Shown here: positions 29,778-53,248 of the stretch, piece after piece
Layout: each line of letters starts with the position of its first letter
Numbering within the stretch: the stretch's first letter is position 1
IMG/VR virus record: IMGVR_UViG_3300005617_000028
Location: 1 to 64,000 of that record
Direction: 5' to 3' (one strand)
Origin: a virus
Length of the DNA: 64,000 bases
Translations under genes and position numbers: made by a program
Notes under the pieces: generated by a model
Told to the model about the DNA's origin: nothing
Databases searched by the model: none
The model's input: the letters and a program-made list of their open reading frames with translations, nothing else

Positions 29778-30035
29778 ATGCGCACGATGACCTACAGCGA
29801 ATCACGGGCTCACTACGCCGATGTGCTCAACCGGGTGGTCGACGACGCGGAAGAGGTCGTCATCACACGTGCAGGCCGCGAGCCCGTGGTCATCGTGTCG
29901 CTGGCCGACTACCAGCGCCTGAAGGAAACCGCCCACCTGCTGCGTAGCCCCGCCAACGCGCGACGGCTGTTCGCGGCCATCGACCAGCTGGAGGCCGGTG
30001 AAGGCAGCGTGCACGAGCTGCTTGACACGGAATGA
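29778..30035 (+). CDS. yefM: YefM-like antitoxin
   Basis: This 85-residue protein begins MRTMTYSESRAHYADVLNRV, the Phd/YefM dimerisation and DNA-binding fold, continues with VVITRAGREPVVIVSLADYQ and LLRSPANARRLF, and ends in an acidic tail that would occupy the toxin. It is autoregulated in known systems through an upstream palindrome, which is present here. The stop overlaps the toxin start (ATGA). Confidence 0.88.
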   Translation: MRTMTYSESRAHYADVLNRVVDDAEEVVITRAGREPVVIVSLADYQRLKETAHLLRSPANARRLFAAIDQLEAGEGSVHELLDTE

Positions 30036-30286
30036 AGATCACCTTCGCGACGCAGGCGTGGGAGGACTACCTCTGGTGGCAAACGCAGGACCGCGCCATG
30101 CTCCGCCGGATCAACACCCTGATCGCGGACATCGCCCGCAACGGCCACACCGGCATCGGCAAACCGGAGCCGCTGGCCCACGCCCTGCAGGGCTACTGGT
30201 CGCGGCGGATCAACGATGAGCACCGGCTGGTCTACAAGGTGACCACCGATGAGGTGTGGATAGCCCAGTGCCGCTACCACTACTAG
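30032..30286 (+). CDS. yoeB: YoeB-like ribosome-dependent mRNA interferase
   Basis: This 84-residue toxin matches the Txe/YoeB family: WEDYLWWQTQDRAMLRRIN, then GIGKPEPL, the GYWSRRINDEHRLVYKV core and the C-terminal CRYHY. In YoeB the core Glu/Arg and terminal His/Tyr act in A-site mRNA cleavage, and all are present, so it is likely active. On a phage or island the pair could stabilise the element or block superinfecting phage (inference). Confidence 0.9.
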   Translation: MKITFATQAWEDYLWWQTQDRAMLRRINTLIADIARNGHTGIGKPEPLAHALQGYWSRRINDEHRLVYKVTTDEVWIAQCRYHY

Positions 30287-33358: not shown

Positions 33359-33533
33359 ATATAGGCCGACTGTCGGGAACGGGCGAGATGTCCATAGTTC
33401 ATGATGCTAGACAGCGGGTGATCACTGGCACCATCGGCCAACCGGATGAAGACCCGCAGGTCAAGGCACCTTTCGAGAATATCAAGCCCACAACCGAGGG
33501 TGCGTTGAACACCGGGAGGCCGCTGCCTGATAG

Positions 33534-33606
33534 CGCGCCCGGCAGGATTCGAACCTGCGACCAATGGATTAGAAGTCCATTGCTCTATCCGCTGAGCTAC
33601 GGGCGC
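33534..33606 (-). tRNA. tRNA-Arg (anticodon TCT)
   Basis: On the minus strand a full 73-base cloverleaf folds: acceptor GCGCCCG/CGGGCGC, D arm GCTC-AGCGGATA-GAGC, anticodon arm ATGGA-CTTCTAA-TCCAT with anticodon TCT, T arm GCAGG-TTCGAAT-CCTGC, discriminator G. CCA is not encoded. It reads AGA codons, rare in GC-rich actinobacteria. It lies 398 bases from the integrase start, and its anticodon segment is repeated in that interval. It could be a phage tRNA, an att-restoring copy or a host gene at an element edge. Confidence 0.97.
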
Positions 33607-33801
33607 CTGAGAGGACAGTAGGTCATCGATATACTAACCAACCCGCCCCTATCGGGCGAACAGCTAACTCTACCTAGGCCGAACGGATGTCTTGTCCCCT
33701 CGCCTGTCCCCAACCTTGAGCCATCGCTGCCCGTCAGTGTTAAATAGGCTCTGACCTGCGGGTTTGTGGCCAGTTTGGACATGACTGAAGGATTAGAAGT
33801 C
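33566..33801 (+). other. Putative attachment region: repeated tRNA anticodon segment
   Basis: GGATTAGAAGTC occurs inside the tRNA (33566-33577, anticodon stem-loop) and again, same orientation, at 33790-33801, 203 bases before the integrase. Tyrosine integrases often cross over at tRNA anticodon loops. GTGTTAA at 33737-33743 and 33802-33808 could be arm-type sites. The flanks of the second copy are not tRNA-like, as in an attP core. The rest of 33,607-34,003 has no gene; it holds an 8-bp palindrome CTACGTAG near 33,878 and a CCCCT/AGGGG hairpin near 33,933. Confidence 0.5.
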
Positions 33802-34003
33802 GTGTTAAGGTAACGCAGTGTGACCGGACAAAATGGGGCAAGACGTTACGAACTCCCATTGATTAACGTGCGTGCGCTACGTAGGGTTACGGCGTTTTAC
33901 CCCCTTTTCCACCGACTGTCTCCGCCTGCCCCCTCGACAGGGGACGGTGAACGTGGGTATGGTCCACCCCCGTTCCACCGAGCAGGTGTGTGAGGCGTAA
34001 CCC

Positions 34004-35284
34004 ATGGCATCCATCGAAAAGCGCGGTTCTTCTTTCCGGGTCGTCTGGCGGCATAACAGCGCCAAGCAGTCCACGACATGGCCCAATGAAAGACTTGCGT
34101 GGCAGGCCCGGCGGCTGGTTGAGGGCCGTGAGCACCGCGTCACGCCCGATGAGGTCTACGAGATCGTCGGCGGTGTTGAGATTGCTCCGCGCCGGCAGTC
34201 GGTTCTCACCTTTCGGACGTGGAGCGAGATGTGGATGGCCGCTCTGGTACGGCCCGGGGATTCCACCCGAGCCAACTACCAGGCGCAACTCGACCGGCAG
34301 ATACTGCCCGCCATCGGCGAGCTTGCCTTGGTAGACGTTGACGCCATCGCTGTGGCGACGCTGGTCAACAGCCTCAAGGTCAAATTTGCCAACACCACCG
34401 TCACCCGCTACTACGCCGTGCTGTTCCAATGCCTGAATTTCGCGGTCAAGATGGGCAAGATACCCGTCAACCCGTGCTACCAGATCAACTTCAGGCGGGA
34501 CGAACCCGACCAGCTCGACACCAGCGATGAAGATGACGACCACGTCTACCTGACGCTCCAGGAGTACGAACAGATCCTGTCCAACATCCACCCGGCCGAT
34601 CGACCCCTCGTGGAATTCCTGGCCGGGACCGGTTGCCGGATCTCTGAGGCCACCGCGGTAACCGTCTCGGCAATTCGCCTCCACGGCATCGGGCCGCAGG
34701 ATCCAGCTCCCGTCGTGCGTATCCAACAGACTCACAAAGGCGACGGGTCGGGCGGCCGCCGGGTACTGGGTATCCCCAAGGGACGCCGCCGCCGGTGGGT
34801 ATCACTCGGCCAACGTGTCCTTGAGGCCATCGCGCCCGTGCACACTGATCGGAACCCGACAGAATTCCTGTTCACCGCCACAAGGGGCGGCCCCATCAAC
34901 GCCGACAACTGGCGGAATCGGGTCTGGGACAAGGCAGTCGGCGAAGCCCGTCGGTGTCCGCAACACCCTCCCGCACTGCCGCCCCAACCAGTGCGTGGCC
35001 CTCGCCGCCAATGGACCCCCGATGAGGTTTCCACCTGCAACTGCCCCGGCGTCTTGTCACGCCGTCCAACACCCCACGACCTCAGACACTCACACGCCTG
35101 CTGGTTGCTGTCTGAGGGCCACGACCTGCTGTTCGTGTCACGCCGGCTTGGGCATGCCAGCGTCAGCCTGACCGAGCGGGTCTACGGTGGTATCACCCGT
35201 CAGCGTGATAATGAGGCAGCCACGCTGATAGACCGCGCAATGGGAGCTGGGACGCGGCAACGGCGCCTCCTCAGCTCGGTATAG
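34004..35284 (+). CDS. int: Tyrosine integrase
   Basis: A 426-residue recombinase. An N-terminal arm-binding-like section (1-60) and a core-binding SAM-like domain (about 65-170) precede the catalytic domain. Catalytic residues seen: Arg212 (GTGCRISEA), a Lys in the KGRRRRW turn (about 257), His358-x-x-Arg361 (HDLRH), His384 (LGH) and Tyr394 (RVYGG). A Cys/Pro-rich insert of about 45 residues before HDLRH (CPQHPP, CNCPG) is found in many actinobacterial integrases. It lies next to a repeated tRNA segment, consistent with tRNA-Arg integration. The gene is likely intact. Confidence 0.95.
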   Translation: MASIEKRGSSFRVVWRHNSAKQSTTWPNERLAWQARRLVEGREHRVTPDEVYEIVGGVEIAPRRQSVLTFRTWSEMWMAALVRPGDSTRANYQAQLDRQILPAIGELALVDVDAIAVATLVNSLKVKFANTTVTRYYAVLFQCLNFAVKMGKIPVNPCYQINFRRDEPDQLDTSDEDDDHVYLTLQEYEQILSNIHPADRPLVEFLAGTGCRISEATAVTVSAIRLHGIGPQDPAPVVRIQQTHKGDGSGGRRVLGIPKGRRRRWVSLGQRVLEAIAPVHTDRNPTEFLFTATRGGPINADNWRNRVWDKAVGEARRCPQHPPALPPQPVRGPRRQWTPDEVSTCNCPGVLSRRPTPHDLRHSHACWLLSEGHDLLFVSRRLGHASVSLTERVYGGITRQRDNEAATLIDRAMGAGTRQRRLLSSV

Positions 35285-35326: not shown

Positions 35327-35581
35327 GTGGAAATGCCCAAGCTCTACACCCTGGCCGAGGTCGCGCAGAACACCGGGCTGTCCCTGCGGGCACTCGCCGA
35401 CGGCGCCCGCGCAGGCAAGTTCGCCCACGTCCACCAGGGCGGGCACCGCTACATGACCATCGAGCAGGTCCACCAGCTAATCCAGGTATCCACAGTGACA
35501 CCGGACCCCATCCCCGACGACCTGGCGCCGCTGCGCCGGCGGTTGATGCAACGGAGCTTGCGCAACCAGGCCGGGGGATAA
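35327..35581 (+). CDS. xis: Excisionase-like HTH protein
   Basis: This 84-residue protein starts at GTG 35327 after GAGGAG, 42 bases beyond the integrase. LYTLAEVAQNTGLSLRALAD is a MerR-type winged-helix entry, followed by a basic wing (AHVHQGGHRYMT). Directionality factors of this size and fold sit beside integrases in actinophages and help excision. The tail with LAPLRRRLMQ is helical. A general regulator is the alternative. Confidence 0.72.
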   Translation: MEMPKLYTLAEVAQNTGLSLRALADGARAGKFAHVHQGGHRYMTIEQVHQLIQVSTVTPDPIPDDLAPLRRRLMQRSLRNQAGG

Positions 35582-37626: not shown

Positions 37627-38163
37627 TCAGGGGGCCAATGGGCGGAGCCGGCGGATGTAGGACGGCTGCCAGCTGATTCCGATGACCGCGCCCTCGGCGT
37701 TGACCGCCGTGTCGTACTGGGACAGCCACATCAGCGAGTACGGCTCAGCCGGCTTGCCGGCCGCGCTAGCGGAGTCCGCAGACGGTACCCACCCGCCGCA
37801 GTCGCAGCCGGGCTTGTCGCAGGACAGCACGCTCACGTCGAACGCCGTGCTCCGGTAGTGGCTCATCTGGCCCGATGCCATCGGGCAGGCCGCCGCGGAG
37901 TACCGGGCGCACTCCGGGTGCATGGCGGGCTCACGGCTCCAGCCCGCCTCAAGCTCGCTGGGCGTCACCAGCGCCACGCACGGCTGCTCCAGGCGCTGAC
38001 CGTCGATCTGGCAGCGCTGGTCGACCACACAGGCGTTTCGCCGGCTGGTGTGGACGTGGCCGAGGACATGGCGGCCGTCGCCGGAGGCCACCGAGATGTA
38101 CGGCACCACCAGGCCGCCGCTCAGTGGCCGGCCGAGCAGGCGGGCGGGAATGTCCGGCATCAT
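37627..38163 (-). CDS. Hypothetical phage protein with two Cys clusters
   Basis: Start chosen at the tandem ATG ATG (38163), preceded by TATACC, so the transcript may be leaderless. The 178-residue product has IPARLLGRPLSGGLVVPYI, a CVVDQRCQ knuckle, MHPECARYSAAACP and CDKPGCDCGG. The order of a P-V-P-Y entry, a HPECA motif and a CP pair recalls a family common in actinophages and Streptomyces accessory DNA, of unknown function. Confidence 0.55.
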   Translation of the reverse strand: MMPDIPARLLGRPLSGGLVVPYISVASGDGRHVLGHVHTSRRNACVVDQRCQIDGQRLEQPCVALVTPSELEAGWSREPAMHPECARYSAAACPMASGQMSHYRSTAFDVSVLSCDKPGCDCGGWVPSADSASAAGKPAEPYSLMWLSQYDTAVNAEGAVIGISWQPSYIRRLRPLAP

Positions 38164-38341
38164 CCAGGTATACCCGATCGGGTGAACCTGCACGTCAAAG
38201 GCGCGCGGAGCCGGTCTGAGCGAAAAAACGGAGGCCGGGCAGGTAGTTGCTGGTAGTGACGCGACAAGCAGGTCGCACACTCCACTGAGGACGCTGAACC
38301 GTGGACCCATGACCGTACGGCGCTGGCATCCGACAACTGCC

Positions 38342-38652
38342 CCGGCGGAACGCCGGTAATCAAACCCAAGGCCATCCGGTCCTGGACCCTCAGAAGGTCA
38401 CCTTTACCGGACACCCGAGCAACGGCGCAGTCGTGTAATGGCGAGCCCGGGGCGACACAGGTGGAAGAGACCTGTGGGCTGGAGACGAAAACGAACCGTC
38501 TCCAGTTCTTGACGCCGTTGCTGATCCCGGCCTCGCGGGCTGTGGTGTAACGGCCACAGCAGTCAGGTGAAGCAGCCTGACTGTGCCCGGTGTGACACGG
38601 CCTAAACGCGCCGAGTCAGCACTCTCTCCACCAAGCTCTATGGCATAGCCAT
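38342..38652 (+). ncRNA. Candidate large structured RNA (or hairpin-rich origin)
   Basis: No gene is credible between 38,164 and 38,791. Perfect helices seen: 38342-38347/38351-38356; 38375-38380/38406-38411; a 10-bp closing stem AGCAACGGCG 38418-38427 with 38513-38522; inside it CACAGGT hairpin 38456-38462/38470-38476 and CTGGAGACG hairpin 38479-38487/38497-38505; then 38539-38545/38554-38560, 38561-38567/38576-38582, and ATGGC/GCCAT 38640-38644/38648-38652. Two loops read TGTAAYGG (434-441 and 546-553, last three digits). It is not a normal tRNA. Position between divergent gene sets also fits a replication origin. Confidence 0.45.
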
Positions 38653-38791
38653 GCCCAAGATCGAACCGGGGGGGGGTGTTCTCCAACCACTCAGCTCCCA
38701 GCGGCCAAGCCGAGGCAAGTCAAAAGCACAAGACACTCCACGGTTGGAGCGAACTAATGGTGAACCATGCCCAAAACCGCGGCGGGCTGTG

Positions 38792-39253
38792 ATGGCTCTC
38801 ATCTCCGCTCGTGAGTTCCGGCAGCAGGTGGCCGCCTGGGCCATCAAGGGCCAACGCAAGTTCGAGGTTACCTGCCGGCAACGGTGTGGCCACGACCTCG
38901 TCGTCCGGCTCCGGGTCAACGGTGGCCTGAGCGAACTGGAGCAGGCGGAAAGCCAGCGGTGCGCTCAGTGTTCGGAGCCGGATCCGTTGGGACGCGAGGT
39001 GGTCTATGGGCGGGCCTACGAGGAGGCCAACGCCCGCGCCGCGGAAGCCGGCTTCCCCGCGCTGACCGGTACGCGCAAACAGGTTGGCTGGGCGAACGTG
39101 CTGCGGCTGCGGGCGGTGCGGCTTCATGGCCTTGACGCCATCAAAGACAGCGTGATGGACCGGAAGGAAGCCACCTGGTGGATCGCCCACCGCGACCGCC
39201 TCCGGGATCTGGTTCCGCCGGCGTGGGCGACCGAGTCAGCGGGTCAGCGGTGA
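38792..39253 (+). CDS. Zinc-ribbon-like hypothetical protein
   Basis: ATG 38792 (a GTG lies one codon earlier) gives 153 residues. VTCRQRCGHDLVVRLRVNGG and QRCAQCSEPDP form two knuckles at about 28 and 55. The second half is helical (GWANVLRLRAVRLHGLDAIK) and basic. It is the first rightward gene after the structured region, and its stop overlaps the next start. Confidence 0.58.
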   Translation: MALISAREFRQQVAAWAIKGQRKFEVTCRQRCGHDLVVRLRVNGGLSELEQAESQRCAQCSEPDPLGREVVYGRAYEEANARAAEAGFPALTGTRKQVGWANVLRLRAVRLHGLDAIKDSVMDRKEATWWIAHRDRLRDLVPPAWATESAGQR

Positions 39254-39480: not shown

Positions 39481-39716
39481 TCACGCATCCGGCCGCGCCC
39501 GATGTCCGGCCCCACCGGAGCGCGTCGGCGCCCGGTCAGGAGATCACCATCCACACGGACGGCAGGGTCCTGGTGTGGCGCCAGATCGGCTGGCACGGCG
39601 GCTCCGGCGCGTTCTACGCCCTCGGCGAGGACCCGTCGCGGTTTGAGCGGGGCTCGTTCCGGCCGCTGTGGATTCTGGCGGACAACGAGCTGGACGAGTC
39701 TGACGTGTTCGGATGA
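39477..39716 (+). CDS. Small beta-rich hypothetical protein
   Basis: This 79-residue protein is coupled on both sides. Residues 22-70 contain ITIHTDGRVLVWRQIGWHGG and FRPLWILADNELDESD. No known family is apparent. It lies directly upstream of the MazEF-like pair, and its stop overlaps the antitoxin start. Confidence 0.5.
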   Translation: MITHPAAPDVRPHRSASAPGQEITIHTDGRVLVWRQIGWHGGSGAFYALGEDPSRFERGSFRPLWILADNELDESDVFG

Positions 39717-39955
39717 AGATCAGGGGTGTGGAGATCAACGTGACCGTGAAACTGCCCAAGCCGGATCTGGCGTTTGTCGACCGGTACGCCGCCGCCCGCG
39801 GGCTGACCCGCTCGACGGCGGTGCAACACGCGGTCGCGCAGCTCCGCACCGTCGAGCTGGCCGGCGAATACGAGACAGCGTTCACCGAGTGGCGAGATTC
39901 GGGTGAGGCGGCGGCGTGGGATGCCGTGGTGGCGGACGGGCTGGCCGGCTCATGA
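39713..39955 (+). CDS. Ribbon-helix-helix antitoxin (MazE-like)
   Basis: The 80-residue protein opens with EINVTVKLPKPDLAFVDRYA and LTRSTAVQHAV, the strand-helix-helix pattern of RHH DNA-binding antitoxins, and ends in an acidic helical tail (EYETAFTEWRDSGEAAAWD) fit for toxin binding. The following gene encodes a MazF/PemK-like protein and starts in its stop codon, the standard antitoxin-first layout. Confidence 0.72.
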   Translation: MKIRGVEINVTVKLPKPDLAFVDRYAAARGLTRSTAVQHAVAQLRTVELAGEYETAFTEWRDSGEAAAWDAVVADGLAGS

Positions 39956-40302
39956 TGGCCCGAGGAACGGTCTGGCTGGCCGCGCTGCCGGCGGGCGCCG
40001 ACGGCGAACAGAGCCAGATGCGGTCCGTGGTGGTGGTCAGCAACGAGGCGGCCAACGGCACAGCGCAGCGGCTGGGCCGCGGTGCCGTGAGCGTGGTTCC
40101 GCTCAGCCCGGACGTGGACCACGTGATGTCCTTTCATGTGCTCCTGGACGCCGGGACGGTCGGGCTGCCGTACGCCACCAAGGCGCAGGCGGAGCAGGTC
40201 CGCACCGTCGAGGTGAGCCGGTTGCTGCGGCGGCTGGGCGCATTGACGCCGGCGGCCCGGCTGCAGCTGGACGCGGCCCTGCGGCTGCACCTGGGCCTGT
40301 AG
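39952..40302 (+). CDS. MazF/PemK-like mRNA interferase
   Basis: Start at the first of two ATGs (39952); 116 residues. GTVWLAALPAG matches the RGdVwla start of MazF, RSVVVVSNEAAN the second strand, and VVPLSP and LPYATKAQAEQVRTV the later conserved parts. The catalytic Thr/Ser-x-Arg region is partly changed, so activity is likely but not certain. It is paired with the RHH antitoxin gene by ATGA. Confidence 0.75.
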   Translation: MMARGTVWLAALPAGADGEQSQMRSVVVVSNEAANGTAQRLGRGAVSVVPLSPDVDHVMSFHVLLDAGTVGLPYATKAQAEQVRTVEVSRLLRRLGALTPAARLQLDAALRLHLGL

Positions 40303-40312
40303 GGGCCGAGCT

Positions 40313-40588
40313 GTGCCGGCTTGGACACCACCGCCGCTGCGGGCCCACCCTGAGCGGGCGCAGACGACAATCCGGGTGGATGTGGCGCGGCGGGACGGGC
40401 TGGCGCAGCTGGCCCGGGAGCTGGGCGGGGTGAGCCTGGATGAGGCGCTGAAGGTCCTGCTGTTCCGACACGACGTGAGCCGGGCAGTGGCCAGCCTGGA
40501 GGCCGATCCGGCGGCGCTGGCCGACTACCGGCGTCAGGCGGCCGCGCTGGCCGAGGTTGACGTAGCGGTGGTCGACCCGATCTGGTGA
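40313..40588 (+). CDS. RHH-like small protein, possible orphan antitoxin
   Basis: This 91-residue protein starts at GTG 40313, 10 bases after the toxin. QTTIRVDVARRDGLAQLARE and LDEALKVLLFRHD fit a ribbon-helix-helix DNA-binding domain, followed by an Ala/Asp helix. No toxin gene follows, so it is either a third component of the MazEF-like locus or an orphan antitoxin. Confidence 0.6.
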   Translation: MPAWTPPPLRAHPERAQTTIRVDVARRDGLAQLARELGGVSLDEALKVLLFRHDVSRAVASLEADPAALADYRRQAAALAEVDVAVVDPIW

Positions 40589-40602
40589 CGACCGGGCGCG
40601 CA

Positions 40603-40655
40603 CGAAGGCGGGCAAGCGGGTGTGGGGGAACCCCCCGGCCGGCTGCCCGCCTTCG
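40603..40655 (+). terminator. Long hairpin after the MazEF-like operon
   Basis: CGAAGGCGGGCA (40603-40614) pairs perfectly with TGCCCGCCTTCG (40644-40655). The 29-base loop has its own GGGGG/CCCCC potential. There is no T-run. It probably ends the operon. The remaining gap to 41,109 carries a second hairpin and a promoter, listed separately. Confidence 0.5.
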
Positions 40656-40736
40656 CGGTGGTGAACCCTCGATGGCTTTGGGAGGCCGAGGGCTCCGCCA
40701 CCCTAGCAACAATGGGTGATATTGGCGTCACAGGAC

Positions 40737-40757
40737 GCGCCGGTGCGGCACCGGCGC
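40737..40757 (+). terminator. Perfect 9-bp hairpin with 3-base loop
   Basis: GCGCCGGTG, loop CGG, then CACCGGCGC. It is very stable and unlikely by chance. Lying just upstream of a promoter, it could stop incoming transcription. A protein-binding palindrome is the alternative. Confidence 0.4.
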
Positions 40758-40775
40758 CATAGATACACATCCTGC

Positions 40776-40805
40776 TTGACGTACGTACAGCGCATAGGGT
40801 ATGTT
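40776..40805 (+). promoter_or_regulatory. Good vegetative-type promoter
   Basis: TTGACG (40776-40781) and TATGTT (40800-40805) are 18 bases apart, the clearest -35/-10 pair in the window; GTACGTAC lies in the spacer as a possible operator. A GAGGGA and a 26-codon frame (40845-40925) follow, then no credible gene until 41110. Confidence 0.6.
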
Positions 40806-41109
40806 CGTCTAGTAGGACAGCACCGAGACGGACGGGTGAGGGAACATGAAGCGTTGTGACGCACAGGATCCCGACCGGCCACGTTCGGCCGATCAGCCGG
40901 CTCCGCCGTCGAACCGGACCGCGTAGGTTCACGGTGCACCTACTCGACTACGCCGCCGTATCTGGGCCGGCTGCTCTGCCGTCAACCATGGCACTCCCGG
41001 CCCAGCTGGGCTCTGCGATGGTGACGGTACGCGGACGCTGGCGAGGCGTGAGGGATGCGCGGTACGGCGCGCTCCCCACCTCAGTCGGTCCAGTAGGAAG
41101 GCGGCTTCG

Positions 41110-51872: not shown

Positions 51873-52057
51873 AGTGTCCTCCAGGCTTGTATAGGCGGCT
51901 CATGCCGCGCGAAGATCAAATAACCCCCGCGGCCGGGTCGGTGATCTGACTCGGCTCTTTTGCTAGCCTCGGCGTTGTGCGTGTGTGAATCCATACGGTG
52001 CAGGTCTTCAAGTCGTCTTCAACAGGCCATGACTCATTCCCCCGGGAGGTGGCGGCA

Positions 52058-53248
52058 GTGCAGGATTTCGGTGAGGCGTTGCGCAGTCTGCGAACCGCGG
52101 CCGGTCTGAGTCAGGCGGACCTGGCCGCAGCGACGTCTTACGCGAAAAGCCATATCGGGAATGTCGAGACCGGTAAGCGGCAGCCCACGACGGAGCTTGC
52201 GGACGCATGCGACCGGGTGCTGGGTACCTCTCCGCTGCTGGTCATGTTGACCACCAACGGAGGCAGCGACATGAGACGACGCGCGCTTGTGAGCATCATC
52301 GGCACCTCGCTCGGGGCCGGCTTCACGTTCGGTCCGGACACGCTGGCTGAGGTGATCCGTACGGCCCTGTCCCGCGACACGGGCGATGACCTGGAGCAGG
52401 TGGTGGCCAACTTCGAGCGCCGCTATTTCTTGGAACCCACCACCGTGTACGGCACCGACTTGCTGTCCGAACTGCTCATCCTGCGGCAGCGGGTAGCGGA
52501 GCGGCCCGACCCGCGGACCCTGGCGACCACGGCGGTGTTGTCCCAGCTGTACGGCCTGTGGTCGGGCAACCAGGGCAAGCTCACCGCCGCGCACGGCTGG
52601 TACGGCACGGCGGCCGGCCTGGCGGACCGTAGCGGCGACAACCGGGTGCGGGCCGATGTGCGGGGCCGCTCGGTGGTGCGGGGCGTCTACGAGGGCTGGA
52701 GCCTGTCGCACGCGCGACGCGAGATCGAGACGACCCTGGCGCTGAGCCCTACGGTCACTGTGGGCCGACTGGAGGCGCACGCGGCGCGGGTGCACATTGC
52801 CGGCCTGACCGGGGCGGTGGACGAGGGCCGTCAGGCGGTGGCCGATATGTGGCGTACCGCCGAGGCGCTGCCGGAGCCGGACCACCCGGCCACCCACACC
52901 GCCCGCACCGCGCTGTTCGACAACTTCCTGGAATGCCGGGCCGGTACCCCCGCCAGCGCCGAGAGGGCACACACCCGGGCGGTACCGCTGCTGGCGGCCA
53001 CGCCGCTGTGGCTGGCCGACGCGAAGATCTACTACGGCCGGGCGTTGGTGACGGGCGGTGACGTCGCCGGCGGTGTCCGGCTGGGCCTGGACGCGGTCAG
53101 CTCCTACAGCGGGGTGAACCTGCGCGTGCACCAGGTCGGCGTCCGTGATCTGCTGTCGGTGGTCCCGCCCGGCTACGCCAGCGACGAGCTGCACGCCCTG
53201 CGGGCCTACGCCAGCCCGCAGCCCGGCCCGTGGGAGACGCTTCAATGA
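52058..53248 (+). CDS. XRE-family regulator with helical-repeat C-terminus
   Basis: GTG 52058 after GGGAGG gives 396 residues. The HTH (2-56) reads FGEALRSLRTAAGLSQADLA, SYAKSHIGNVETGKRQP. A short link (RRRALVSIIGTSLGAGFTFG) leads to a TPR-like all-helical domain (about 110-390). This layout is common in host regulators of Streptomyces and Micromonosporaceae. In the phage it could be an immunity repressor. TAGCCT at 51964 is its likely -10. Confidence 0.75.
   Translation: MQDFGEALRSLRTAAGLSQADLAAATSYAKSHIGNVETGKRQPTTELADACDRVLGTSPLLVMLTTNGGSDMRRRALVSIIGTSLGAGFTFGPDTLAEVIRTALSRDTGDDLEQVVANFERRYFLEPTTVYGTDLLSELLILRQRVAERPDPRTLATTAVLSQLYGLWSGNQGKLTAAHGWYGTAAGLADRSGDNRVRADVRGRSVVRGVYEGWSLSHARREIETTLALSPTVTVGRLEAHAARVHIAGLTGAVDEGRQAVADMWRTAEALPEPDHPATHTARTALFDNFLECRAGTPASAERAHTRAVPLLAATPLWLADAKIYYGRALVTGGDVAGGVRLGLDAVSSYSGVNLRVHQVGVRDLLSVVPPGYASDELHALRAYASPQPGPWETLQ

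Follow-up and report, generated by a model that had tools for sequence, protein, structure and literature searches.

A compact, strongly folded noncoding segment of a probable temperate actinophage as a candidate structured RNA

The virus record IMGVR_UViG_3300005617_000028 contains, at 38405-38622, a core of about 220 nt that folds above chance, has no recognisable coding gene and matches no known RNA family. The window, meaning the whole stretch of DNA that was analysed, comprises 64,000 nucleotides and is the first half of a record totalling 129,139 bases (~129 kb). The folding signal is real, well delimited and without known relatives. Our tentative reading, with a probability of about 0.4, is that the core acts as single-stranded RNA, whether as the 5′ leader of the rightward operon beginning at 38792 or as a small RNA standing alone. 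We infer its transcription, its strand, the binding of a protein and a regulatory role.

Folding was assessed against 200 dinucleotide shuffles of each segment. The core has a folding energy of -109.3 kcal/mol compared with a shuffle mean of -83.9, giving z -5.34 on the + strand, and none of the 200 shuffles folded as well. It includes five stems that are perfect over 7 bp or more, where the shuffles have a mean of 1.23 (p 0.006). Both results argue for the RNA reading. Within the core the junction (38416-38524, 109 nt) gives z -6.29 on the + strand and -6.19 on the - strand, and the hairpin array by itself is weaker (z -2.62 and -1.48). The 5′ flank of the core is ordinary (z -1.2), and the 3′ part (38623-38791) folds at chance level (z +0.7 and +0.5). 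The first-pass annotation had placed the element at 38342-38790, which is too wide given that the signal is limited to about 38405-38622. Its statement that the stems are far above chance is upheld for the core and fails for 38623-38791, where the later hairpins that it described (ATGGC/GCCAT and others) are at chance level. An early z of -8.5, obtained with 25 shuffles, is superseded by the 200-shuffle value of -5.3 for the core.

It is somewhat unlikely that the segment has no present function, its stems having come together by chance or being what is left of an older, decayed element. A window of 64 kb offers many chances for one odd fold, and when the whole window was scanned, with some noise because each segment was compared with 25 shuffles, background segments reached z values down to about -5; segments within 38361-38660 (+ strand) equal or exceed the most extreme of these. 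That no relative was found in any searched collection also favours a lack of function. Decay would bring mismatches, yet the five stems of 7-10 bp are all perfect, and the signal of the whole core lies beyond every shuffle.

The predicted structure comprises a multi-way junction of 109 nt and, after it, three hairpins in an array. The junction (38418-38522) is closed by a perfect stem of 10 bp between 38418-38427 and 38513-38522, with a pair probability of about 0.83. It encloses a short hairpin (38431-38444) with the octaloop TGTAATGG at 38434-38441, whose stem is just 3 bp of Watson-Crick pairs with a pair probability of only about 0.45. This is followed by a hairpin at 38456-38476 with a perfect 7-bp stem (38456-38462 with 38470-38476) and the 7-nt loop GGAAGAG, and by one at 38479-38505 in which a perfect 9-bp stem (38479-38487 with 38497-38505; 11 bp if two G-U pairs are included) carries the loop AAAACGAAC and has a pair probability of about 1.0. 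The array begins with two abutting hairpins, a perfect 7-bp stem with the octaloop TGTAACGG (38539-38560) and a perfect 8-bp stem with the octaloop TGAAGCAG (38560-38583). The base at 38560 is able to pair in either of the two, and the pair probabilities of the 8-bp hairpin are near 1. In the third hairpin of the array (38593-38618) the stem of 8 bp is broken by a single unpaired base in either arm. The closing stem, the 7-bp and 9-bp hairpins and the two abutting hairpins are all present as first described.

Three hairpins with unlike stems carry the octaloops UGUAAUGG, UGUAACGG and UGAAGCAG, each closed by a G-C pair, and the loops constitute a family G[UGWARYRG]C. The most similar pair is alike at seven of the eight bases, and the third loop is related. 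Such likeness of the pair and the triple together occurs in 0.24% of 5,000 shuffles; it was noticed after the fact, so that it serves as a lead in favour of the RNA reading rather than a test. Two of the loops had been singled out earlier as sharing TGTAAYGG; both are present (38434-38441 and 38546-38553) on similar hairpins, but the motif is not rare in the window (three occurrences, 1.35 expected). Loops of one family on unlike stems would suit repeated binding sites for a single protein. Binding of that protein to the loops could then set the expression of the neighbouring genes, or alternatively the RNA could sequester the protein. A long shot is that the element belongs to a class of phage regulatory RNA not described before, or else that it is an origin primed by RNA in an actinophage that carries an integrase; in either case the octaloop UGWARYRG, recurring on several hairpins, would provide the binding sites.

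The core lies in a gene-free region (38164-38791) between divergent genes at 37627-38163 (- strand) and 38792-39253 (+ strand). The earlier figure of some 630 gene-free bases holds once a false start codon is put right. ORF callers start the minus-strand frame so that it spans 37627-38310, of which the first 147 bases are too early. Its homologues begin near residue 50, which places the true start at about 38163; GC3 is 0.91 in the body of the frame and 0.65 in the upstream extension. GC3 likewise rises from 0.53 at 38651-38791 to 0.81 after 38792, which indicates that the rightward gene begins at about 38792. Across the gap itself GC3 is flat, and a minus-strand ORF of 98 aa that spans the core also has flat GC3 and no family match. 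GC3 thus does not indicate coding in the core, which is consistent with RNA function. The minus-strand gene belongs to a family known from actinobacterial genomes and phage contigs (matches in four actinobacterial genomes and nine IMG/VR contigs), and the product of the downstream gene has a weak match to PHROG 16123 (function unknown). A simple scan of 38100-38900 found no sigma-70-type promoter, and no terminator was found downstream on the + strand; both results weigh against the RNA reading.

We note that the 10-mer CCATGCCCAA does occur twice as first reported, at 38649-38658 and 38765-38774 (+ strand), in both cases outside the fold. A third copy is found at record position 87170 (- strand), making three in the record. 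GGTGARCCATGCCCAAAACC is also present in the IMG/VR phages L049 and L050, which resemble each other, in the stretch ahead of their HNH-like and terminase-like genes. CCATGCCCAA/GGTGARCCATGCCCAAAACC may be a shared regulatory site.

The opposite strand of the core gives z -4.39, and calculation with single-stranded DNA parameters gives z -4.75. Since the strands are nearly equal and the DNA folds too, thermodynamics separates neither RNA from DNA nor, clearly, one strand from the other; the assignment of the + strand is based only on its slightly better fold. The slight strand preference and the equally good folding of DNA count against the RNA reading. The first-pass suggestion of a new structured RNA nevertheless survives as a possibility, on the strength of the fold, the lack of an Rfam match or a tRNA, and the noncoding character given by GC3.

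The hairpins could instead act at the level of DNA, extruded or single-stranded, such as in an origin of replication or at sites of recombination or packaging. The nearly complete Watson-Crick pairing would be in keeping with this, as would the strong folding of both strands and of single-stranded DNA and the divergence of the flanking genes. We regard it as distinctly unlikely, however. Positions 38164-38900 contain neither DnaA boxes nor an AT-rich stretch (the lowest GC content of any 40 bases is 47.5%), and the repeats include no iteron family. The GC-skew switch expected at an origin does not coincide with the element: cumulative skew has a local turning point at around 35.5 kb, some 3 kb from the element, and falls to lower values later in the record. 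No match to ParA or ParB was found in the whole record. An origin, as first proposed, is therefore weakly supported at best, with only the analogy to RNA-based origins of parABS mycobacteriophages, discussed below, in its favour.

DNA search, pattern search and a single-sequence covariance model, covering phages, plasmids, contigs of IMG/VR and some 1,000 genomes of actinobacteria, found no homologue of the element; such a model is insensitive and the genomes are a sample, so the absence of homologues is unproven. This result counts against the RNA reading. The DNA search (phages, plasmids, 14 records mostly sharing a gene, and 396 actinobacterial genomes) returned only short chance matches, one of them within a coding gene. 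In IMG/VR the pattern GTGTAAYGGC occurring twice gave 17 matches, including a tRNA-Gln pair, tandem repeats and coding DNA, and GTGTAAYGGC together with GTGAARCRGC gave five matches with dissimilar surroundings. Against 299 + 299 + 39 genomes and related virus records, covariance model R1 scored 20-24 bits at best, in matches that lack most of the junction; the highest of them (24.3 bits) falls in a coding gene and was rejected. Neighbouring genes were also used as bait. The downstream (38792) protein, the integrase and PolA found no match in IMG/VR, and the downstream protein found none in genome contigs. The element is absent at three loci carrying the PHROG family of the downstream protein. 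It is absent too from the region upstream of the minus-strand gene homologues in L002 and L003, and this failure to be kept there is a further point against the RNA reading.

Membership of a known class of phage RNA, whether a tRNA, a degenerate tRNA array or an ornate RNA of the GOLLD or ROOL type, is very improbable. The TGTAAYGG loops do resemble the D-loops of tRNA-Gln, and one of the pattern matches is a genuine array of tRNA-Gln genes in tandem. However, neither ARAGORN with its default settings nor the Rfam tRNA model gives a match, in agreement with the earlier observation that no full tRNA can be folded. At relaxed thresholds ARAGORN makes only marginal calls on the element, of changing isotype, and a degenerate tRNA array was rejected on this basis. 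Rfam searches with gathering scores and with E as high as 10 returned no family except mir-729, a sole hit at chance level (E 9.2). This excludes GOLLD and ROOL, so the comparison with these RNAs drawn from the first inspection is unsupported; the element is also small.

The left part of the genome encodes tail proteins, including a tape measure protein of 1871 aa, followed by a helicase and DnaB, and the right part encodes a PolA-type DNA polymerase. Between DnaB and PolA lies a block of small genes with an integrase (34004-35284), an excisionase (35327-35581) and a helix-turn-helix regulator (51998-53248), and the structured element is situated inside this block. Because the tail-to-polymerase gene order continues through the integrase block, the record is read as a phage genome and not as host DNA. 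Our best reading of the source is a temperate actinophage of ~129 kb, with the element in its lysogeny and early-gene control region. The rightward block next to the element encodes a toxin-antitoxin-like pair (39713-40302), made up of a ribbon-helix-helix protein (39713-39955) and a MazF-like toxin (39916-40302). A location between the integrase and excisionase at 34.0-35.6 kb and the toxin gene at 39.9-40.3 kb suits a control region, and this favours the RNA reading.

Several other features of the region were observed. A second toxin-antitoxin-like pair at 29778-30286 resembles YefM/YoeB by sequence appearance only. A second structured intergenic stretch (40586-40860; z -2.5 and -3.2) has a long hairpin and includes a near-perfect palindrome at 40737-40757. 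The palindrome is followed by a good sigma-70-type promoter whose boxes, TTGACG and TATGTT (the latter ending near 40805), are 18 nt apart and have GTACGTAC between them.

The sole tRNA of the phage is a complete tRNA-Arg(UCU) (33533-33606, - strand). Twelve bases of its anticodon-loop segment (GGATTAGAAGTC, 33566-33577) are copied exactly at 33790-33801, upstream of the integrase (34004), and from its sequence and position this copy is a candidate attP core. The best full-length match to the tRNA in 396 sampled actinobacterial genomes is about 92% identical. In tRNA-dependent lysogeny a complete phage tRNA and a very short core of the same isotype occur together, the phage tRNA replacing a host tRNA broken by integration (PMC10865867); the isotypes named there include Lys-TTT, Lys-CTT, Ile2-CAT and Leu-CAA, and Arg-UCU is not among these four. 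By analogy of layout only with what is described there, the tRNA-Arg(UCU), the 12-bp core and the integrase form a probable module of this kind. The interval from the candidate attP core to the integrase holds a direct repeat of 15 bases, CCCCTTTTCCACCGA / CCCCCGTTCCACCGA (33901-33915 and 33967-33981), whose copies could be sites of the arm type for the integrase.

Few noncoding RNAs of actinophages have been characterised. The main specific rival to a leader or small RNA is an RNA-based replication origin, in which the transcript of the segment would prime or control replication, as proposed for Alma, LadyBird and RedRock. These cluster A parABS mycobacteriophages need transcribed noncoding segments of about 400-500 bp for replication of the prophage (Wetzel et al., PMC7157519), and RNA-based prophage origins are so far known almost only from this group (PMC7157519). 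Like the element, they are noncoding, a few hundred bases long and located mid-genome in temperate actinophages, and the Alma segment folds comparably (497 nt, z -4.6 and -3.6; best 200-nt window -5.35). The differences are that parABS phages lack an integrase, whereas the phage studied here has an integrase and excisionase and no match to ParA or ParB, and that there is no similarity by sequence or model, R1 finding nothing in Alma or RedRock either in the ori segments (L056 and L057) or in the whole records. An origin of this type is unlikely. GOLLD and ROOL are likewise phage-encoded, multi-branched and gene-free (PMC12286853), and the element has a tRNA gene 5 kb away. It is however much shorter at about 220 nt, many members of GOLLD exceeding 800 nt (PMC12286853), and the record has one tRNA and no tRNA island.

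The one named relative of the phage is distant. Its PolA is 38% identical to that of Microbacterium phage Magritte (OR553905; 133 kb) over 81% of the query, and the two genomes are distantly collinear, with the order tape measure, helicase, DnaB, PolA in both. If the element is a transcribed RNA it would add an unclassified regulator or origin to this group. At present it is a well-delimited candidate without relatives, of use mainly as a query once more Magritte-like phages have been sequenced. Magritte has no counterpart of the element by BLAST, and gives one weak covariance-model match (E 0.04). In Magritte DnaB leads to PolA within about 7 kb, through small and replication genes, whereas in the phage studied here the integrase and the control region that holds the element separate the two.
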